A DNA stretch of 64,000 nucleotides, from contig NZ_JAUKPO010000002.1 of NCBI RefSeq assembly GCF_030503435.1, forward strand, positions 496,001-560,000, written 5' to 3'. A model generated the notes under the pieces. The model did no database searches and was not told the origin of the DNA. It worked only from the letters and a program-made list of their open reading frames with translations. How positions within the stretch are numbered: position 1 is the first letter of the stretch; every line of letters begins with the position of its first letter. Both the position numbers and the translations under genes were made by a program. This document shows positions 14,310 through 50,375 of this stretch, one piece after another. Origin of the DNA: Rhodocytophaga aerolata (GTDB lineage: Bacteria > Bacteroidota > Bacteroidia > Cytophagales > 172606-1).

Positions 14310-15071
14310 CTAAAATCCTATAGAATTTCCACCATCTACACACAACTGGGTACCATTAACAAATTTGGCAGCATCTGAAGCCAGGTAAACTGCCGCATAG
14401 CCAATGTCTTCAGGCTTTCCAAATGTGCCCATTGGCGTACGGCTTAATACTTTGTTTTTCCGGTTTTCATCATTTTGCATGGCTTTCGTTAACATGGGGG
14501 TTTCTATAAACCCGGGAGCTATGGCATTGATGCGGATGCCATGCGGCGAAAGATCACAGGCCAGTGTACGGGTAAGACCCAGAACAGCCGATTTTGAAGC
14601 TGTATACGCTGGTACCCCGGGAATACCATACACCGCTGCCATAGATGTAATCATAATGATACTGCCTTTTTTGCGGGTAACCATTTTCTTACTTACTTCT
14701 CTGGTCAGCGTAAATACCGCCTGCAGATTGGTTTGTATAATGGTGGAAAACTCTTCGTCGCTTACCTCCAATGCAAATTTCTTCATATTAATACCTGCAT
14801 TATTCACCAGAATATCCAGAGGGCCATAGCGGTCTTCCAGGTCAGTTACCAAAGTGGCGGCTCCTGTTAGTTGAGTAACATCATGTATGGCATAATGGCA
14901 TTTTCCGCCAATTGTTGCAGTAGCTTCCTTTAGGGGCTCTTCTCTTCTTCCGGTAATAATTACTTCGGCGCCGGCATCCGTCATTGCTTTGGCGATGGCT
15001 AAGCCCAACCCCGTACCTCCACCAGTGATCAAAGCTAGTTTGCCTTTTAAGGAAAAAGGATTTTGTGACAT
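14310..15071 (-). CDS. SDR family oxidoreductase (gluconate 5-dehydrogenase-like)
   Basis: A 253-residue short-chain dehydrogenase. Cofactor motif TGGGTGLGLAIA sits near the start, then NNAGIN, catalytic Ser in IIMITSMAAVYG, the YTASKSA active-site Tyr-Lys, and the end APGFIETPMLTKAMQ with VNGTQLCVDGGNSIGF. I place the start at 15071 (MSQNPFSLKGKLALITGG), which has an AGGAAG ribosome-binding site six bases upstream; a longer frame to 15119 adds a non-family tail. It is the first gene of the sugar-acid run and probably interconverts a keto sugar acid and its alcohol form. Confidence 0.9.
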   Translation of the reverse strand: MSQNPFSLKGKLALITGGGTGLGLAIAKAMTDAGAEVIITGRREEPLKEATATIGGKCHYAIHDVTQLTGAATLVTDLEDRYGPLDILVNNAGINMKKFALEVSDEEFSTIIQTNLQAVFTLTREVSKKMVTRKKGSIIMITSMAAVYGIPGVPAYTASKSAVLGLTRTLACDLSPHGIRINAIAPGFIETPMLTKAMQNDENRKNKVLSRTPMGTFGKPEDIGYAAVYLASDAAKFVNGTQLCVDGGNSIGF

Positions 15072-15123
15072 ACTTCCTTTATTTTGTTCAATATAATAAA
15101 GGTATAAGTAAATTATCATTAAT

Positions 15124-15202: not shown

Positions 15203-16432
15203 TTATTGCGGATTAGCGGTAGCAAATACATGACAACCTCTTGCTTTTAAGCAGTTTACTCCTTCCTCATAAGAGTTGGTAAGCAGATTACCGCTTTTTT
15301 TCTGGCAGAAAGGGCAGGCATGTAAGTCGCCGTCGGTGTCTATGTATAAGAACCGGTTGCCGGCTCCGGTGCAGCCGGCTTTCCGCTGATGGTAGCCATG
15401 AAATACCACAATAGGCCAGTCGGCATAGGCTGGGTCCAGGTTTAATTTTTCATAGAAGCTCGTAAGCAGTTGGATCTGGTCTGGATTGAGTTCAACCTCT
15501 TTTCCAATATAATGCCCTACGGCTCGAGGTTCTAATAGTTGAACAAAAGCTACACCCAGTCTCTTGGCAAGTCTGGCATACTGCATCAGGTTTTCCTCAG
15601 TTACAAAGGCTTTCGTGGCACAAAGTGCCAGGCTTACGACTAATCCAGCTTTATGGGCCTCAACCACAGCATTGATAGCCAGCTGGTAGGCATTAGCCAA
15701 GTTGCGGAATGTATTATGCTCTTGCTCCAGGTAGTGATCCAGGCTTACAGACACGCCGGTAAGTCCGGCTTCTTTAAGCAGGCGGGCATTTTGAGCCGTA
15801 AAATTATAGCCAGAGGTAAATACCCAGAAATCTGTAACTGGCCGTGCCATTTTAAGCACCTCCACTATATCGTGTACCCGGAGCATAGGTTCGCCACCAC
15901 TGAACAGAACCTGGGTTATGCCTTTATCTTGCAAGGTATGTACAATCTGCATAATAGCAGATAGGGAAAGTTTTTCGCGTTTATTGAGGTTGTCCCATTC
16001 AAAACAATGCTCACAGCCTAGGGGGCACTTCTTGGTAATAGCAAAAAAAGCAATATAGGGGTGAATGGGCACTTGCGGGTGAGTGACCAAGCGATTTATT
16101 TCATTGTGCATAAAATCTTTGTAAGCCACAGAAGGCCATCCGGGGCAATGATGCGTCCAGTAATACCGGCCATCTACCTGGGCTACTTTTCTGATAGACT
16201 TTGTGCCATAAAACAGTTGCCGTAAAGCACGGGCTTTTTTTATAAGTTTCGGAAGAGAGTCTGCTTTGGAAACATGCTTCATGAGCAACGAAATATCTTG
16301 TATACGAAACCTGGTGGCCAGTAGCTTCCGCCTAATGGAAGAGACCACGATAGTAGAAGGAAGGTATGGAATATGGGTAGTGGCCGGATAGCCCTCATTT
16401 GCCGGCGTATGCTTAGTCAAGGTGCTTTCCAT
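15203..16432 (-). CDS. Radical SAM protein with cysteine-rich C-terminus
   Basis: A 409-residue radical SAM enzyme. The [4Fe-4S] motif is C136-x3-C140-x2-C143 (ITKKCPLGCEHCFEW), followed by the SAM-binding segment VLFSGGEPMLRVHDIVEV. The first 125 residues are an N-terminal extension I do not recognise. The C-terminus carries five cysteines (about 354, 373, 376, 394, 400), including CPFC, consistent with an auxiliary-cluster domain of the SPASM/twitch type used by peptide-modifying enzymes. It begins 3 bp after the stop of the large lipoprotein gene, implying translational coupling. Its substrate is unknown; no small precursor peptide gene is obvious nearby. Confidence 0.85.
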   Translation of the reverse strand: MESTLTKHTPANEGYPATTHIPYLPSTIVVSSIRRKLLATRFRIQDISLLMKHVSKADSLPKLIKKARALRQLFYGTKSIRKVAQVDGRYYWTHHCPGWPSVAYKDFMHNEINRLVTHPQVPIHPYIAFFAITKKCPLGCEHCFEWDNLNKREKLSLSAIMQIVHTLQDKGITQVLFSGGEPMLRVHDIVEVLKMARPVTDFWVFTSGYNFTAQNARLLKEAGLTGVSVSLDHYLEQEHNTFRNLANAYQLAINAVVEAHKAGLVVSLALCATKAFVTEENLMQYARLAKRLGVAFVQLLEPRAVGHYIGKEVELNPDQIQLLTSFYEKLNLDPAYADWPIVVFHGYHQRKAGCTGAGNRFLYIDTDGDLHACPFCQKKSGNLLTNSYEEGVNCLKARGCHVFATANPQ

Positions 16433-16435
16433 AGA

Positions 16436-18139
16436 TTATTTAGTGGTAGCTGTTAAACCCATTTGTTTATTTATTTCAAGGTATTTTTCTTTAGAAAATT
16501 CAACAAACCGGCCTTCTTTACGGAACGATAGTAATTCGGGTATATCTGGAGTACCCTTATATTCACGTACATGTTCATAATACCCTTTTGTATGCAGAAA
16601 GGTACTTACCTTTGTACCCTCTATGGGTTGCATTGGATTCATATACGTAAGGGTAACGGCTGTTCCGGGTTGTAATTGTTGTGCGTATACCGTATCGTCT
16701 TCAGAAAGCATGGCACGCATATCCTCATTTTTCTCATTTATGGCCGAATATGGCTTACATTTCTCCAGCTTCACAGGTAAATTAGTGCTGTAATCTATGC
16801 CAGCATAGTCTATTTCCCAGAACATAAAACCTGCAGCCAGTTTAACACGGATGGTATCTTTTGTTTTCACGGCTGCCAGGTTTAGCGGTATTACTAAATT
16901 ACGGGAAGCCAATGGGCCAACTGATTCTATTCTGTCTACCAGTTGCCAGCCGGCGGATGTTTCCAGATATACACTTAAGGGGATACCCTGGTCTATCTGC
17001 CATTGGGAAAGCTTTTGAAACGGTTCTTTTTTCTGGCTGGCGGCCCATGTAGGATACAAGCTGCCAAACTGCTGGGTAAACTCTCCGAAAAGATAATCTA
17101 GCCAGAGGGAATTTTGTGCCCGGAGCACCAGCTTTCCACTGGAGATTTGTGCAGGTTTGTCAAATGTTAAAACAACTTCATTGAGCGAACCGGCAGGTAC
17201 GGTTTCATTAAATAAGTAATTGGTTGAATCTTTCCGGAATAGTTGATCCAGGCAAGATTCACCAGCACTTGTTTGAGCCTGTATAGGTGCCTCTACCTGA
17301 GATAAGGTATGTATGTTACCTTTGTTATCGAGTAATACAGTTACTTCTGCCGGATGCTGTACTACCCAAAGCTCCGCCAAGTTAGTATACTGCCGTTCTT
17401 TTAACTCATTGGTAATACGAATGCGGTATTGGTCCTCTACTGGAACACTAGTGGGTAGAGGCATAAAGTCGTGGCGTTCGAGTGGGGCAAATATGGCTCC
17501 TCCATACGTTTCTCCGGTAAATTCATATCCTTCCCCGGTATCTGTATAGACAAAAGGGCATGAACTTTTAGTCAGTACAATGATAATACTAATCAGTACC
17601 AGTACGCCAATAGTTACTCCTACGGCCGTTAGCACATGAGAGGCAACTGTACGGCCGGTATCCTGTTCAACAATATCTATCCGCTTGATGGAAGAAACCG
17701 GGATAGCTATTTGATTTCCTTCCTCCTGCCTATACTCATTGATATACAGATGCACCCGGTTGAGGGCATTGTATTTATCGGTAGACCGGTATCGGTGAGA
17801 CTTATTGGGATCTGCCGTAGCATAGTTTGTTTGGGAGACAGGCACTTCATTCAAGGTTCCTTCCAGCTCTTCTCCAGTCAGCACTACATTTGTTAACGAC
17901 CAGGTTTTCGGACCTTGGTGCAGTATAAATATTTTTCTTTTGCTTAATGAATAAACAGTATTTAGAGCATCGGGAGCTTCGGTACGGGTACGGTAATAAT
18001 TACAAGCAATGAGTTGAAACAGAAAACAGAATAGCGTAATGCGAGCCAGGTATCGGTTTAAGCAACTCTTTGCCAAGTTCTTAAAAATACCGCACTGGCT
18101 ATGTTTACCAGCCGCTGAAGAAGTACTCTTTTTTCTCAT
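16436..18139 (-). CDS. Unknown large lipoprotein with internal membrane segment
   Basis: A 567-residue protein I do not recognise by name. A basic N-terminus leads to a lipobox (FQLIAC, Cys46), so it is probably lipid-anchored. A second strongly hydrophobic stretch lies at about 168-189 (VLTAVGVTIGVLVLISIIIV), directly followed by the conspicuous aromatic motif SSCPFVYTDTGEGYEF and then GGAIFAPLERHDFMPLP. The remaining 330 residues are beta-rich. It is the middle gene of a three-gene run: 11 bp after the barrel-like protein gene and 3 bp before the radical SAM gene. The cell location is unclear because a lipid anchor and an internal helix rarely coexist. Confidence 0.7.
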   Translation of the reverse strand: MRKKSTSSAAGKHSQCGIFKNLAKSCLNRYLARITLFCFLFQLIACNYYRTRTEAPDALNTVYSLSKRKIFILHQGPKTWSLTNVVLTGEELEGTLNEVPVSQTNYATADPNKSHRYRSTDKYNALNRVHLYINEYRQEEGNQIAIPVSSIKRIDIVEQDTGRTVASHVLTAVGVTIGVLVLISIIIVLTKSSCPFVYTDTGEGYEFTGETYGGAIFAPLERHDFMPLPTSVPVEDQYRIRITNELKERQYTNLAELWVVQHPAEVTVLLDNKGNIHTLSQVEAPIQAQTSAGESCLDQLFRKDSTNYLFNETVPAGSLNEVVLTFDKPAQISSGKLVLRAQNSLWLDYLFGEFTQQFGSLYPTWAASQKKEPFQKLSQWQIDQGIPLSVYLETSAGWQLVDRIESVGPLASRNLVIPLNLAAVKTKDTIRVKLAAGFMFWEIDYAGIDYSTNLPVKLEKCKPYSAINEKNEDMRAMLSEDDTVYAQQLQPGTAVTLTYMNPMQPIEGTKVSTFLHTKGYYEHVREYKGTPDIPELLSFRKEGRFVEFSKEKYLEINKQMGLTATTK

Positions 18140-18150
18140 ATAGTCAACTC

Positions 18151-18936
18151 TTAAAACTGGAAGCCAATACTTATATTCCCCGATACTTTTGCGGAAGTGG
18201 GCGGATCAGAATAGTATCTTCTACTCATTGTTCTTCGCTGAAAACCCAACCCGAAGTCCATACCCAGCAAAATTGTTTTATCTAGCTGATACCATATACC
18301 ATTGTTCAGTAAAAAGGCATATTGGGTTCCTATGCTGGTAGGTAAAGATGTTCCGGGAGAAGGATAATAATAATCTGTTATGTATCTAAAAAACCCCAGT
18401 TGGAAAGAAGGGCCAATATAATACCGGAATCTATCGGGCTTGCCCACATAAAAATTTAGGTCCAGGCCAGTGCTGAATGTCCGGTTGCGGAGCATCGAAA
18501 AATTGTTATATACATCGCCTTTGATCTCTTTATGGCTAATCCCTATGGATATGGGTAGCCGTATACCTACCTTCTGATTGGCAGAGAGATGTTCGTAAAG
18601 CAAACTTAAATTGGTAAAGGCAAAATCTATGGGCCTGAAGCCTATTATGTTTCTGCCCTTGTTATACACCACTGATGGTTTGGGCACAATGGGAGCAGAG
18701 ACAGGAGGAAACTGCTGAACAGAGCCATCCTGATAAGTGATGGACACTACATCTTCTTTGCTGATAACATATAGTTTTCCATTATTTTCGGCATTCTTCG
18801 TAAAATGAATTTCTGATCCTTTTACTTCCACTACTTTAACGTCCAGCTTTACTCCATCAGTTCGCACAATACTATTTTGAGCAGCAGCAGCAAGTACACT
18901 AAAGCATAAAAATAGAGTAGTAAAGAACCGGTACAT
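18151..18936 (-). CDS. Unknown exported protein, probable outer-membrane beta-barrel
   Basis: A 261-residue protein with a signal peptide (MYRFFTTLFLCFSVLAAAAQ). The first mature part is a small beta domain (DGVKLDVKVVEVKGSEIHFT, then DVVSITYQDGSVQQF). From about residue 95 the alternating hydrophobic/aromatic pattern (FRYYIGPSFQLGFFRYITDY, ILLGMDFGLGFQRR) and the terminal phenylalanine (GNISIGFQF) suggest an outer-membrane barrel. It is the first gene of the run with the large lipoprotein and radical SAM enzyme. Confidence 0.7.
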   Translation of the reverse strand: MYRFFTTLFLCFSVLAAAAQNSIVRTDGVKLDVKVVEVKGSEIHFTKNAENNGKLYVISKEDVVSITYQDGSVQQFPPVSAPIVPKPSVVYNKGRNIIGFRPIDFAFTNLSLLYEHLSANQKVGIRLPISIGISHKEIKGDVYNNFSMLRNRTFSTGLDLNFYVGKPDRFRYYIGPSFQLGFFRYITDYYYPSPGTSLPTSIGTQYAFLLNNGIWYQLDKTILLGMDFGLGFQRRTMSRRYYSDPPTSAKVSGNISIGFQF

Positions 18937-43733: not shown

Positions 43734-46700
43734 ATGGGAGAAATTTTACCACAAGAGACACCTATCAGAATGACTACATATCGGAGTTCTGATGCCTATG
43801 ATCCAGCTCGCAAAAACCTGAGGTTTATAAGTTACCAAGCAATAGTAACTATTGCTTTACTCTTTATTAGCCTTACAGGCTGGGGACAATCTTATTGGGT
43901 AGGTCCAGCCGGAGGCGACTGGAATACGGCTGCTCACTGGGTACCTGCAGGGGTACCTACTGCCAATACCAATGTTATTATACCTTCTGGCTTTACGCCC
44001 AATATAACAGGCACAGCATCAGTCTGCAGAAATATTTCTCTGAGCGGTATATTAAATATAGATGCAGGAGCTATGCTAACCGTAAATGGAGACTGGGAAG
44101 TAGACCAGTCAGTAGGGGGTGATTTAACAGGTACCGGAACCGTAATATTTGCTAATAACTCAGATGTTGCTGATGCTACTATATCTTTGGTATTTACATC
44201 TACAACTCATAAAGCTAATTTCTATAATATCTCAGTGGATAGAATAGGAGGTAGCCTATCTACAACTGCATTTTGGTTAAATGTTACCAATAATTTAACA
44301 CTTACCAATGGCACTGTAAATGCAAACACCTCCCGCATAGATGTCGGGCGTGCTTTTACAGATGGGCCTTTAGCCACTTTCAATGCAAATACCTCCACGG
44401 TACAGTTTGTCGGTTCTTCCTTAGCAGCGCCTGTGTCCGCTGATCAGCCATTTTATAATGTTGAGGTAAGAAAAACGAATGGGAGCATAGCTATTACAAG
44501 TAATTTGATTATAAGAAGTTTATTGGTACAAGGCACTGCAACTACAGCTTCTAGTGCTGTTTTTTCAGTAGCAGGTATAACAGTGGATGTGCAAGGCACC
44601 CTAATGGTTGAAATAGGTGGGAATATAAACTTATCGGCTACCGGTAATACGAATCTGATGGTATCTGGTGCTACAACGGTTAGAAGTGGTGGCAGAATAG
44701 TTACAAATCTCCTCTCTAACACATCTGAAATAACATTTAATGGTGGCTTAGATTTATCCTCAAATATTCCATTGGTTAGTAGTGTAGAGATTGGCCCAAC
44801 TATTGGAGCGCCAGTATTATCCAAATTAACAGTAACAGGTTCGACAAGAATCTGGGGAACTGCAAAACTTATTACTAACACTACTGCAACAGTAAATTTT
44901 AATGGCAATGTTGATCTGCAGCCAACAGGTGCAGGTTCAAGATTTGATGCCTTTAACAGTAAAATTGAAGTGACAGGCAACTGGCTGAGCAACCGTCCGG
45001 AATATTTTAATGCAGGAACATCTACTGTAAAATTTATTGGAAACATCTCCACCTTAATTCGGGAAAACTGTACGTTTGCTAACTTAATCGTTGAAAAAAG
45101 TGCGGGTGCAACGGTAACATACACCAATCTGAGCGCTATCAGCAATCTTTTAATTAATCAAAACTTACTGATTCAGAGCGGAAGCCTTATCTTGAGTGAT
45201 GTACCACTGACAGTGGATATGAGTTTAAAAGGCGATTTGACTATTATCAAAGATGCATCTGTTGATATATCTATCCCATCTTTAGTTATAGAAATTGGGG
45301 GGAACCTGGAAGATCAGAATGTGGCCGAACCCACTAATATACCTCCAAGAAGAGGTTTATTTATAGGAATGGACCCTATTAATCCGATGGGTGTGCGGCC
45401 TTGTACCCCAGGTATCTATTCAGTTCAGCCAAAACAAGATCTTCCAACCATCCGCTTTAATGGAAATACAGAGCAACGGATTACAGGATATGTACCCTTA
45501 CGTACATACTGTGGAGGTCTTTATCCAAAGAACGGAATTGCTTTACCTAATATAGAAATTTACAAAACAGACACAGTTCGTTTGAACTCTGATGTAAATG
45601 TACGTATCCACGGAAATTTAAATATTATACAAGGCGGCTTCAACCTGAGTTCACAAATATTGTATTTCGGCGATAACGAGAACGACGAAATCAATATTCA
45701 AAGTCTTGGTACTTTTACTGCGCCTGAAGGCTCACAAATATTTATGAATACCGGTACTACAGCCAATGGTACTTTTTTAAAAGTAAATGGAGGAGCCCTC
45801 AAACTACTAGGTAAAGCAAGCAATCCAGTGGTTATTACCCGCGAAGGAACAGTAAATCAGTATTTCCGTATGGCGGCTTTTAGCGGGACAGTAGAAGCTA
45901 TTTACACTACCATTAGTTATCAAGGAAGTTCTAATGTTGGGTTTTATCCAGATGGTGGGTATGGTTTAGCACCAGATGCTATTACTTACCAAAGTGCCGG
46001 TGGTTTTAAAATTTACAGTTCTGCTGTTATTGATCCCGATAACCTGGGCTATAATTTTAGTTATTGTGTATTAGGAGCAAATGCCGCTTCTGGAACTACT
46101 TCTCTTACCATTAATACAGGACAGGACCTAAATATAAGAGGAACCATTTTTAATACATCTGGTACTGGAGGGATAAATGTAGTTAAGAATAATGCAGATG
46201 GCATCATTACATTTGTCCGTAGTTCTGGTGAATTAGGTGGAGTAAATGGCGAATTCTATGATGGAGGATATTATGCTGACCCAGTTCCAGGATATGACGA
46301 AGGCATTGTCTGGGAAACCTTTACCCGTATGTATTGGGTAGGTAATACCTACGATGGCCGTCTAACAACAGATGTTACTACAACTAGATGGAGCGATGCC
46401 CGAAACTGGTCATTGTCTGCCAGTAGCTGGGATAATCCAGATAACATTTACCCGGGTCAATATCCGGCTCCATCCCCATTGAGCGGAAAAACAGTTGCTC
46501 CGGACTATCTTCAGCAGTTTGAAGTGTTTATTAGTGCTTCTGCGAGAACGTCTCCTATTGTAGATGGAAACTATGTTATTCAGGGTACTGTAATAAATAA
46601 TGCTGTCGGACGCTATGATAGCTTTGATCTGAATCCGGTTTTAATAAGAAATGGCAAAACGTTAGATCTGAATGGACATACCCTGACTGTCTGGGGCGAT

Positions 46701-49700
46701 TTTGTAAATAACAACCGGGATGCTAACGGAAATAACCTTGCTGGTAGCAATGCGATTATAAGAGCAAATCCTGGTGGCACCGTACGATTCAGAGCTAATT
46801 TAGCCAGCTTTCATGGTAATTCTACTATTGATGCCGGAGCAGGATTTATTGTAGAAGCTTTTGATAACAATCCGCTACAGGAAATAAAGATTGCCGCGAA
46901 CGACTTACAAGAATTTACTATTAACAAGCCAGAAGGCCGGGTGGTAGTACAAGGCTTTGGCAGTGACCGTTTAGATGTTCGCAGAAATCTGAATATTTTG
47001 TCTGGCGGTATGGAAATGCTTACGAATACTCCTTTATTAGTAGACGGCAACTTCAATATTTCTGGCGGATTCTTCACTTTCAATAGTAGTATTGCCATTG
47101 TGAGAGGTAACTGGAACAATACCGGCGGAACGATCAATACAGGTGGGGGTATAGTATATTTTTATCCTTCAGACAATGCCACCAAAATAGTCCGGAGCAA
47201 CGGCCAGAGTTTCAACCAGGTAAATTTTGGTATGATCAATAATAGCACAGGAGCTTTATCCACACCTCTTGCACCTGCCTCTCCCGGTTTAACTACCTAC
47301 AGAATTGTTGACCATTTTACTGCTACTAATCTAGTTACTATTGCGGCAAGAGGACAAATAAGCGGAACTATTTATACTGATGACCCTGCCGTAAATACAA
47401 GTACCCATCCTGCACAGCCTAGAATCGTGGTTGTAGAGGCGAATGTAACTGTACGGGTGAACGGGATGCGTGTACGTGAAAATGGCGAGTTGATATTAAA
47501 AGAAGGAGCTACCCTGCTGATAAGCAATAACACCAAAGATTTTACAGTGGATAACTATAATCCTTTCCCTGCTGCATTGAATCCATTGGGATTACGTATT
47601 GAAGGAGCAGCTTCATCTTTCCCTAATGGTAAATTAACGGCTATAGGTACAGCAGAAAACTATGTAAAAATCAGCCGCAATGGTATATCCGGCGTGTATA
47701 ACTTCAAAGTAAATGGTACCTTAAGCAACCGGTATTATTTGTTTGAATTTATGGATACAAATGGAGTAGATCTGACAGCCTCTACTTCAACTACTATTAG
47801 CCCAGGTACTGCCGTAATTCCTGCCAATGGTGTTCCTGGTACACAAATGGTAAACGTAGCCAGCTTTAGCGACGGTATCTTAACTAATGGTACCATAGGT
47901 GGTGTATACATTAAATATACAGATAATGCATCCATTTTTGGTGCAGCGCCTGATACGATATATAACGTTAACTTTCCAGTGCCTTTGATAGATGGATTAG
48001 GCAATGGGGCCAACATCAGGCGCACAAGCCTTGTATGTGCTGCAGTTGCTACTGGTGTTGTATGGTTCAGAAATGCAACCGGCTCTTTTGCAGGTGAAGC
48101 TTTTGATGACGATGGCTCTGCTTGTGGCTTAGACCAGATACAGTGGAGACAGCCCCAGATAAGAAAGTGGGATGGAGGTGCAGGTAATTCATTCTGGCAT
48201 GCAGCCAATAACTGGATACCCGACGGAGTACCCTTACCTGATGAAGACGTTGTGTTAGATCATACCTATGTTCCGGGAGTTTACACAGTAAATATTACCA
48301 ATATTACCGGGGATGTAATCGCTAACAACTTAAGTATTATCAATAACACAAATTCTAATCAGATCACCTTGCAAGTATCAGATGCAAGAAACTTAAAGAT
48401 AAATAAAGGCTTTACTATTGATGTGCCAATTGGTACAGCATTTGGGAAACTGGTACTAGATAATGGCACTTCGATGGAAGTGGGTGAAAACTGGAGTAAT
48501 AAAGGAAGTTTTGTGGTAAATACAGCACCTGTCGCTTTTGGGGCAGGGTATAAAGGAAGCCGGGTAATTTTTAATGCCAAACCTACTTCTCCTGCTGCTT
48601 ACAATGCGGCCACGAATCTGGAACCTTCAAAATACACAGATAACGTATTTCATAAAATCATTATGAAATCCGGAAGAACGGAATTGAATAGTGATTTAAT
48701 GGTAAAAGACAGCCTGATTGTTAACACAGGAGCCAGACTCGATAACTCTTCCAGCTCTGACCCACAGTCTATATTAAAAGGTCCGAATGGAATCCATCCG
48801 AATACAATATTAATTGAAGGTAACTGGGTTAACAATGGTCGCTTTTATCCGACAGATGGTACAGTAAATTTTGTTGGTCTAAATGAACAAATTCTGGTAC
48901 AACAGGATACTGTCACTGAAAACTTTTATACACTGAAAATAGAGAAACTATTTAATGCAAGTAATTTAGCTGATCACCGCAATGTTACGCTGTGGAGCAA
49001 AGCAACTGTATCCAATGAATTGAATTTACAACGAGGCCGCTTTATTACTAGACAGGGAAGGGAGTTGATTTTATTAACTGATAATATTATCCGTAACTCT
49101 GCAGCAGCTAATACAACGGCTTATGTAAAAGGTCCATTGGGTCAATTGTATAAAGGTATTGGTGAGATAAAACATAAATTTGCGGTAGGCGACCAATTAT
49201 GGCCTGGCGACTTTGCTTACTTAACTATTAAGTTAACTTCTACCAGCACAGATAAAGGTACAGTATTCATTATGGAGCAGAAAGACAGTGATCCTGATCC
49301 AAGTTTTAATCCACTGTATCCTAATGACCCGGCACCTTATGGAGAAGACAGAGTATTACCAAGGCCATTGAACTTTTTGAGCCGGAGCCGCTACTGGAAT
49401 GTAAAAAATATTATGTTTCCAATTACCAAGCCTACTGCAGGATTAAACGCTGACTTACAGAGAGGCAGAATTGAACTTCCCCTGGCTGTACAAGATGAAG
49501 ATGCAACGGTTACCACCTCCAATGGTTGGGTAAGTACTCCAGATCAAACGTTAGCCGATGTATTAAGCGAATTGCAAGAACTAAGCATTGTTCAGGACTC
49601 TCTAAATATGGATTCTAACCCTGACTATGCGCCTGCCTCACTTACTACACAAGTAAATAGAGGATGGGCCGAACAGGGAGAAAAATGGGGTGATTTAGGA

Positions 49701-50375
49701 GGCGAATTAAATGTTAAAGAATCAGGAGGAGCTATCAAGGCAACGTATACATCTAATCCTTTTTACAAATTGGGAAATGGAGACTTTGCTTTTGCGTGGA
49801 ATTACATACCCTTACCAGTTGAATTCTTAAGCTTAGAAGCAAGTAAAAAAGAGGGGGTAGTACCAGTAAAATGGATAATTGCCAGCGAACGCAACATTAT
49901 ACAATATGTGGTAGAAAGAAGCAGTAATGGAAAAGATTTTGTAAAAATAGGCGAGGTTCCTGCAAAAGGAAGCGAATCGTTAGCAACAACTTATCATCTT
50001 ACGGATGCTTCACCCCTTTCAAGTACAGCTTATTACCGGATTTATTCAGTAGATATGTTTGGAGTAGCTCAATACTCTAAAACTGTGGTGGTAAATACTA
50101 CTCATAAATCAACTTTATCTACTAATGATGCATTGCTTGTTTATCCTAACCCATTCAATGGCCGAAACCTCAATCTATCACTAGAAAATAATGAAGGTGA
50201 CATACAAATAGCTATCTATGATATGATGGGTAAACAAGTATATACGGCTGCTATTCAACAGTATACTAAGTCAGCGATATCTATCAATATGGATACACCG
50301 CTAACACAAGGAATGTATATAATGCAAATAATTACAGAAAAAGGGGTATATAAAAAGAAAATACTAGTTAAATAA
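43734..50375 (+). CDS. Giant T9SS-secreted modular surface protein
   Basis: A 2213-residue protein. A signal peptide ends near residue 52 (VTIALLFISLTGWGQ). Three W-G-type modules begin at about 54 (YWVGPAGGDWNTAAHW), 867 (YWVGNTYDGRLTTDVTTTRW, then NWS) and 1478 (KWDGGAGNSFWHAANNW). Between them are long beta-helix-like stretches rich in Asn, Thr, Gly and Val. A linker starting PLPVEFLSLEASKKEG (about 2025-2120) is typical just before T9SS tails, and the C-terminal sorting domain is at 2134-2213 (LLVYPNPFNGRNL, ending GVYKKKILVK). It is probably exported by type IX secretion and attached at the surface, perhaps as an adhesin. Confidence 0.9.
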   Translation: MGEILPQETPIRMTTYRSSDAYDPARKNLRFISYQAIVTIALLFISLTGWGQSYWVGPAGGDWNTAAHWVPAGVPTANTNVIIPSGFTPNITGTASVCRNISLSGILNIDAGAMLTVNGDWEVDQSVGGDLTGTGTVIFANNSDVADATISLVFTSTTHKANFYNISVDRIGGSLSTTAFWLNVTNNLTLTNGTVNANTSRIDVGRAFTDGPLATFNANTSTVQFVGSSLAAPVSADQPFYNVEVRKTNGSIAITSNLIIRSLLVQGTATTASSAVFSVAGITVDVQGTLMVEIGGNINLSATGNTNLMVSGATTVRSGGRIVTNLLSNTSEITFNGGLDLSSNIPLVSSVEIGPTIGAPVLSKLTVTGSTRIWGTAKLITNTTATVNFNGNVDLQPTGAGSRFDAFNSKIEVTGNWLSNRPEYFNAGTSTVKFIGNISTLIRENCTFANLIVEKSAGATVTYTNLSAISNLLINQNLLIQSGSLILSDVPLTVDMSLKGDLTIIKDASVDISIPSLVIEIGGNLEDQNVAEPTNIPPRRGLFIGMDPINPMGVRPCTPGIYSVQPKQDLPTIRFNGNTEQRITGYVPLRTYCGGLYPKNGIALPNIEIYKTDTVRLNSDVNVRIHGNLNIIQGGFNLSSQILYFGDNENDEINIQSLGTFTAPEGSQIFMNTGTTANGTFLKVNGGALKLLGKASNPVVITREGTVNQYFRMAAFSGTVEAIYTTISYQGSSNVGFYPDGGYGLAPDAITYQSAGGFKIYSSAVIDPDNLGYNFSYCVLGANAASGTTSLTINTGQDLNIRGTIFNTSGTGGINVVKNNADGIITFVRSSGELGGVNGEFYDGGYYADPVPGYDEGIVWETFTRMYWVGNTYDGRLTTDVTTTRWSDARNWSLSASSWDNPDNIYPGQYPAPSPLSGKTVAPDYLQQFEVFISASARTSPIVDGNYVIQGTVINNAVGRYDSFDLNPVLIRNGKTLDLNGHTLTVWGDFVNNNRDANGNNLAGSNAIIRANPGGTVRFRANLASFHGNSTIDAGAGFIVEAFDNNPLQEIKIAANDLQEFTINKPEGRVVVQGFGSDRLDVRRNLNILSGGMEMLTNTPLLVDGNFNISGGFFTFNSSIAIVRGNWNNTGGTINTGGGIVYFYPSDNATKIVRSNGQSFNQVNFGMINNSTGALSTPLAPASPGLTTYRIVDHFTATNLVTIAARGQISGTIYTDDPAVNTSTHPAQPRIVVVEANVTVRVNGMRVRENGELILKEGATLLISNNTKDFTVDNYNPFPAALNPLGLRIEGAASSFPNGKLTAIGTAENYVKISRNGISGVYNFKVNGTLSNRYYLFEFMDTNGVDLTASTSTTISPGTAVIPANGVPGTQMVNVASFSDGILTNGTIGGVYIKYTDNASIFGAAPDTIYNVNFPVPLIDGLGNGANIRRTSLVCAAVATGVVWFRNATGSFAGEAFDDDGSACGLDQIQWRQPQIRKWDGGAGNSFWHAANNWIPDGVPLPDEDVVLDHTYVPGVYTVNITNITGDVIANNLSIINNTNSNQITLQVSDARNLKINKGFTIDVPIGTAFGKLVLDNGTSMEVGENWSNKGSFVVNTAPVAFGAGYKGSRVIFNAKPTSPAAYNAATNLEPSKYTDNVFHKIIMKSGRTELNSDLMVKDSLIVNTGARLDNSSSSDPQSILKGPNGIHPNTILIEGNWVNNGRFYPTDGTVNFVGLNEQILVQQDTVTENFYTLKIEKLFNASNLADHRNVTLWSKATVSNELNLQRGRFITRQGRELILLTDNIIRNSAAANTTAYVKGPLGQLYKGIGEIKHKFAVGDQLWPGDFAYLTIKLTSTSTDKGTVFIMEQKDSDPDPSFNPLYPNDPAPYGEDRVLPRPLNFLSRSRYWNVKNIMFPITKPTAGLNADLQRGRIELPLAVQDEDATVTTSNGWVSTPDQTLADVLSELQELSIVQDSLNMDSNPDYAPASLTTQVNRGWAEQGEKWGDLGGELNVKESGGAIKATYTSNPFYKLGNGDFAFAWNYIPLPVEFLSLEASKKEGVVPVKWIIASERNIIQYVVERSSNGKDFVKIGEVPAKGSESLATTYHLTDASPLSSTAYYRIYSVDMFGVAQYSKTVVVNTTHKSTLSTNDALLVYPNPFNGRNLNLSLENNEGDIQIAIYDMMGKQVYTAAIQQYTKSAISINMDTPLTQGMYIMQIITEKGVYKKKILVK

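Follow-up and report, generated by a model that had tools for sequence, protein, structure and literature searches.

In Bacteroidota, the closest described counterpart of the genes studied here is the family pair TIGR04133 (rSAM_w_lipo) and TIGR04134 (lipo_with_rSAM), in which a SPASM-type radical S-adenosylmethionine (SAM) protein takes its name from its lipoprotein partner. From these family names and from general knowledge, we take the concept of a radical SAM/lipoprotein pair to be already known. To our knowledge, the radical SAM protein maturases described so far have either small peptides or individual catalytic residues of enzymes as their targets. Here we report a conserved pair formed by a large lipoprotein and a radical SAM enzyme, encoded at positions 15203-18936 of a 64,000-nucleotide stretch of Rhodocytophaga aerolata DNA; this whole stretch is referred to as the window. 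Searches of a literature library returned no description of this lipoprotein-radical SAM pair. It points to an envelope system not described before, whose enzyme probably either modifies the lipoprotein or supplies it with a product.

The locus consists of three genes, separated by 11 and 3 bp.

18151-18936, minus strand: outer-membrane barrel-like protein, 261 amino acids, from the open reading frame list
16436-18139, minus strand: large lipoprotein, 567 amino acids, from the open reading frame list
15203-16432, minus strand: radical SAM enzyme of the SPASM/twitch type, 409 amino acids, from the open reading frame list and PF04055

This layout agrees exactly with the first-pass annotation, made from the sequence alone, which had also described the first two products as exported, the second as belonging to no recognised family, and the third as a radical SAM enzyme. 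These descriptions hold. The barrel-like protein carries a signal peptide, the lipoprotein has a lipobox (LIAC, Cys46), and the enzyme matches PF04055 with E 2.5e-19 (70.5 bits, cut-off 29.5). Searches of the lipoprotein and 19 homologues (n = 20) against Pfam and NCBIfam gave no match above noise; the lipoprotein constitutes a new family.

With TIGR04133, the window's enzyme scores 52 bits (E 5e-14) against a cut-off of 425, and the best member reaches E 3e-17. TIGR04134 is a family of 150 positions, whereas the lipoproteins described here span 541-578 amino acids (20 members); it gave no match at E 10 among these 20 lipoproteins, and a search of the window's genome at E 0.001 returned none either. 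Because the scores that define the two families were not reached, we rejected membership in either and regard the present pair as separate and unnamed. The fold of the enzyme resembles that of SkfB, the maturase of the sporulation killing factor, a ribosomally synthesized and post-translationally modified peptide (RiPP). The two enzymes share 18% identity, the score with TIGR04403 is 49 bits (cut-off 300), and the substrate of SkfB is a small peptide, whereas the neighbour of the enzyme here is a 567-residue lipoprotein.

Pairing of the lipoprotein and the enzyme across genomes

We scanned 84,980 species genomes with a profile of the lipoprotein and kept 80 loci. In 78 of them the enzyme is encoded immediately after the lipoprotein on the same strand, usually at a spacing of -28 to +63 bases, so the packing of these genes exceeds chance; the other two loci (L096 and L133) contain no trace of the enzyme. 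A reverse search with the enzyme as query was run to avoid bias. In an order sample, the enzyme was detected at E 1e-40 in 7 of 194 genomes, with the lipoprotein adjacent in all seven; in a phylum sample, it was present in 7 of 296 genomes, again with an adjacent lipoprotein in every case, once in reversed order. Two more enzyme genomes, both paired, came from a class sample. In total, the lipoprotein neighbours the enzyme in 14/14 distinct genomes found from the enzyme side, and within these samples the enzyme never occurs without it.

Starting from the lipoprotein, the order sample held 22 genomes with a strong match. The enzyme is adjacent in 18 of these and 2.4 kb away in one; the remaining three gave no enzyme match at E 1e-25 over the whole genome. 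A search with an enzyme-less lipoprotein retrieved 12 new genomes containing 13 copies, each with the enzyme in its locus.

The adjacency is conserved at a mean identity between loci of 36-40%. Pairwise distances of the enzyme and the lipoprotein are strongly correlated (Mantel r 0.88, with 0 of 1000 permutations as high), as expected if the two proteins were inherited together. The pair is patchy in Bacteroidota, where about 2% of a sample carries it, and was also found in metagenome-assembled genomes labelled Neomarinimicrobiota (L143), Cloacimonadota (L155), and Delongbacteria (L128). Rearranged pairs include one in reversed order (L213) and four with genes in between (L057, L256, L260, and L261). 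Together, these data confirm that the lipoprotein and the radical SAM enzyme are a conserved pair. The proposal of the first-pass annotation that the locus is one conserved unit is thus borne out by the counts from both search directions; it had named a lack of linkage among the three genes in other genomes as the outcome that would refute it, and on examination linkage was found.

Several loci depart from the simple arrangement. Two tandem lipoprotein-enzyme pairs occur in one genome (L253:3177-10895). In Hymenobacter qilianensis (L107:4797-7799), both genes appear broken, the enzyme being spread over two frames, which reflects either decay or sequencing error. Another locus, from the window's own family (L065:4968-5138), has only 57 residues left of the C-terminal part of the lipoprotein, with no enzyme nearby, and is probably a decayed copy. 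For most of the distant lipoprotein relatives without the enzyme (L059-L064, at about 22-25% identity, and L219, L220, and L222), the next gene encodes a second, small lipoprotein (about 160-200 amino acids), which makes up a sister system with a different partner.

It is very improbable that the pair is no more than a stable operon whose genes serve unconnected envelope functions. Such an operon would be compatible with lipoproteins that occur without the enzyme and with the different small lipoprotein that accompanies the distant relatives. Yet the pairing has been kept in genomes labelled as four phyla at the mean identity given above, it survives the rearrangements, and the enzyme is never alone in the samples searched.

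Architecture of the enzyme and the helical insert of the lipoprotein

The enzyme has the hallmarks of the radical SAM superfamily, with an invariant CxxxCxxC motif and an invariant GGEP motif. Its C-terminal part contains the CX9-15GX4C pattern of SPASM/twitch proteins in a short, twitch-like form, and its score with the SPASM Pfam model (14.3) is below the cut-off of 21.5 bits. Gly368, Cys373, Cys376, and Cys400 are invariant in an alignment of 65 sequences, and Cys354 is at least 90% conserved.

16004-16027, minus strand: radical SAM cluster motif CxxxCxxC (Cys136, Cys140, Cys143), invariant in the 65-sequence alignment
15233-15373, minus strand: auxiliary-cluster motif CX13GX4CX2C, gap, C (Cys354, Gly368, Cys373, Cys376, Cys400), from the alignment

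The structural model of the enzyme has a mean predicted local distance difference test score (pLDDT) of 92.9. Its N terminus is modelled as two long helices (residues 32-53 and 57-75) and a hairpin. The closest solved structure is SkfB (PDB entry 6efn), with a Z score of 27.0 and a root-mean-square deviation of 2.9 over 290 residues (enzyme residues 100-409), followed by SuiB (Z 23.7), viperin-like enzymes (about 23), and, lower, GDGT-MAS (Z 18.6). The enzyme is present as a single copy in its genome. We rejected NirJ2, GeoRSP, MoaA, PqqE, mycofactocin, and sactipeptide maturases as assignments, since all scores were far below the cut-offs, and we ascribe a weak match to the anti-phage viperin pVip (43 bits) to the common core.

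The lipoprotein was modelled with AlphaFold2 from 64 sequences (mean pLDDT 90.0). In the model, an N-terminal beta domain is followed by a 29-residue membrane-type helix and then by a mostly beta part that contains a three-helix insert (residues 345-383). No solved relative was found by sequence, and no whole-protein fold match was convincing; only a jelly roll at residues ~280-453 was matched, resembling carbohydrate-binding modules of the CBM35 type and BcsB (Z ~10-11). This likeness covers one domain, no sequence relation was shown, and the comparison hardly extends to the three-helix insert or to the remainder of the lipoprotein.

18002-18004, minus strand: lipobox Cys46 of the lipoprotein (LIAC), invariant in homologues
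17573-17659, minus strand: residues 161-189 of the lipoprotein, a membrane-type helix with a conserved SSCP motif after it, from the model and hydropathy
16982-17122, minus strand: residues 340-386 of the lipoprotein, a helical insert and candidate for the site that the enzyme contacts or targets, changed in an enzyme-less lineage and kept in its linked sister

Cys46 is invariant in 101/101 homologues (84 enzyme-linked and 17 unlinked), distant ones included, as in bacterial lipoproteins, with the signal peptide judged by inspection. The hydrophobicity of the membrane-type helix is conserved, with a mean Kyte-Doolittle value of 2.8 over 19 residues in the window and a median of 2.5 over 100 homologues. 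Taken alone, this helix would be a stop-transfer segment, leaving the C-terminal part in the cytoplasm; the carbohydrate-binding-like fold would instead argue for a periplasmic C-terminal part. Proteins of ~1130-1230 amino acids from many Bacteroidota (L196-L205) have in common with the lipoprotein only the region around SSCPFVY (profile positions ~183-300).

Three lipoproteins that lack the enzyme (L055, L056, and L058) form one clade nested among linked relatives. Conserved positions were changed in all three at 6 of 8 sites inside the insert, compared with 4 of 57 outside it; the corresponding p value of 6e-5 is not a fair test, as the region was noticed before testing. The nearest linked sister (L250), fetched afterwards, has 0/7 conserved insert positions changed and 8 changes elsewhere, whereas the enzyme-less three have 5-6/7 insert positions changed and 9-12 changes elsewhere. 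Linked members with 6-14 changes elsewhere (at least 8 overall) have 0-3 of the seven insert positions changed. Because conserved residues were lost there once the enzyme was lost, the insert is likely to be a contact or target site of the enzyme, a pattern that is suggestive and falls short of proof.

The strict pairing and the relaxation of the insert after enzyme loss could also be accounted for if the enzyme made a small cofactor bound by the insert, so that the lipoprotein would be a receptor, redox, or sensor protein and no covalent substrate. Small-molecule enzymes (BlsE, MoaA, and viperin) are indeed also among the close structures. We consider such cofactor or ligand supply improbable: the lipoprotein has no recognised cofactor-binding domain, and neither a transporter gene nor another biosynthetic gene shows conserved linkage to the pair.

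Lipid-related neighbours and a proposed modification of the lipoprotein

In 12 of the 80 loci, mostly from Flavobacteriaceae, a PF04116 fatty acid hydroxylase gene is next after the enzyme gene or one gene further on, and such a hydroxylase is also present in L216. Three genomes (L057:5882-11032, L215:2393-7520, and L260:4276-9444) have a five-gene arrangement in common, made up of the lipoprotein, a desaturase (PF00487), a hydroxylase (PF04116), a protein of ~195 amino acids without a Pfam match, and the enzyme. A KASIII-like gene is added in L102 and L142.

Since hydroxylase and desaturase genes accompany the pair in several lineages, the main rival, albeit a doubtful one, is a pathway for a lipid or small molecule. 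Here the enzyme would work at the inner membrane, altering a membrane lipid, a fatty-acyl group, or another small molecule. Its product would be bound, carried, or displayed by the lipoprotein together with the barrel and, in some lineages, finished by accessory hydroxylases and desaturases. The hydrophobic N-terminal enzyme helices of many homologues and the jelly roll of the lipoprotein suit this role, and the hydroxylase is found at the pair even though these genomes hold only 1-9 PF04116 copies. However, hydroxylase and desaturase genes are missing from most loci, the window included; among solved structures, the enzyme is closest to a peptide maturase and not to a lipid enzyme such as GDGT-MAS; and so strict a tie to one lipoprotein would not be required of a metabolic enzyme.

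Covalent modification of the lipoprotein by the enzyme is, in our view, the most likely reading, and we hold it tentatively. In its favour are the strictness with which the two genes are paired one to one, the likeness of the enzyme to maturases, and the dependence of the insert on the enzyme; if the lipoprotein is the substrate, its gene adjoins that of its maturase, as in RiPP pairs. The module would have two components, the lipoprotein and a radical SAM enzyme dedicated to it; the outer-membrane barrel would be optional. A cytoplasmic SPASM/twitch enzyme, built like RiPP maturases, would act on the neighbouring lipoprotein and most likely modify it covalently, either ahead of export or in the course of it; the helical insert would serve as the docking or target site. 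The lipoprotein would then be lipidated at Cys46, become seated on the membrane, and work with the barrel in many lineages. That the lipoprotein is the substrate is inferred, as are what kind of modification it receives, when it receives it, and where it finally resides.

Several observations weigh against modification of the lipoprotein. No RiPP recognition element was seen in the enzyme model, as judged from secondary structure only, and no PqqD-type Pfam match was found; some RiPP maturases lack this element. A folded lipoprotein of 567 residues is an unusual substrate for a radical SAM enzyme. The insert signal stems from one evolutionary event, in a region that had been noticed before it was tested. 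The lipoproteins of L055, L056, and L058 are intact without the enzyme, and therefore the enzyme is not strictly needed for their fold. No residue is invariant in linked lipoproteins and absent from all unlinked ones, so a clear modification site is missing. The hydroxylase and desaturase genes of several lineages are not explained by peptide maturation.

Two more specific readings were rejected. The only invariant cysteines of the lipoprotein are the lipobox cysteine and Cys194; both persist without the enzyme, which gives no support to a cysteine-based thioether (sacti-type) linkage. The C-terminal GYY..R motif is present in distant enzyme-free relatives and is not specific to the enzyme. 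The envelope maturation system proposed in the first-pass annotation is upheld in part: the enzyme is tied to an envelope lipoprotein, but enzyme-free lipoproteins exist.

The barrel-like protein and the significance of the pair

The barrel-like protein has, besides its signal peptide, a small N-terminal beta domain (residues 5-70), barrel-like strands, and a terminal Phe that is invariant in 6 aligned homologues, features that suggest a barrel fold. A Pfam search gave no match. Its N-terminal 66 residues resemble the LA_0442/LA_0875 N-terminal domain (NF047433, E 1.7e-4), at 21.3 bits, below the cut-off of 43.

Members of this family occur in the cassette of 23 distinct loci besides that of the window, in most cases immediately upstream of the lipoprotein gene. 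In L256 and L261 the order is rearranged, with the barrel gene between the lipoprotein and enzyme genes. Other lineages have a different small outer-membrane-like protein in the upstream slot (for example L136). Because this slot varies, and because L096 and L133 retain the barrel with the lipoprotein after the enzyme has gone, we take the unit to have the lipoprotein as its hub, with the barrel as an optional partner. The barrel had initially been cast as the lipoprotein's outer-membrane partner, which fits part of the lineages (about 24 loci) and is not general.

Elsewhere in the window, the downstream short-chain dehydrogenase/reductase gene (14310-15119) was rejected as a member of the unit, as it lies 83 bp away and its linkage to the pair is not conserved. 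Promoter and terminator scans gave no clear excess over shuffled sequence. Positions 43734-50375 (plus strand) contain an open reading frame of 2213 amino acids.

In its most complete form, an inner-membrane enzyme would modify the insert, and the lipoprotein and barrel, with a hydroxylase or desaturase in some lineages, would constitute an undescribed multi-phylum envelope system; we regard this full picture as rather unlikely in all its parts. In a variant of it, the membrane-type helix would put the C-terminal jelly roll in the cytoplasm, within reach of the enzyme. The locus offers a simple, testable gene pair and provides families for three so far unannotated proteins. If modification is true, a large family-less lipoprotein with a dedicated enzyme, present in several phyla, would extend radical SAM chemistry to the bacterial envelope.

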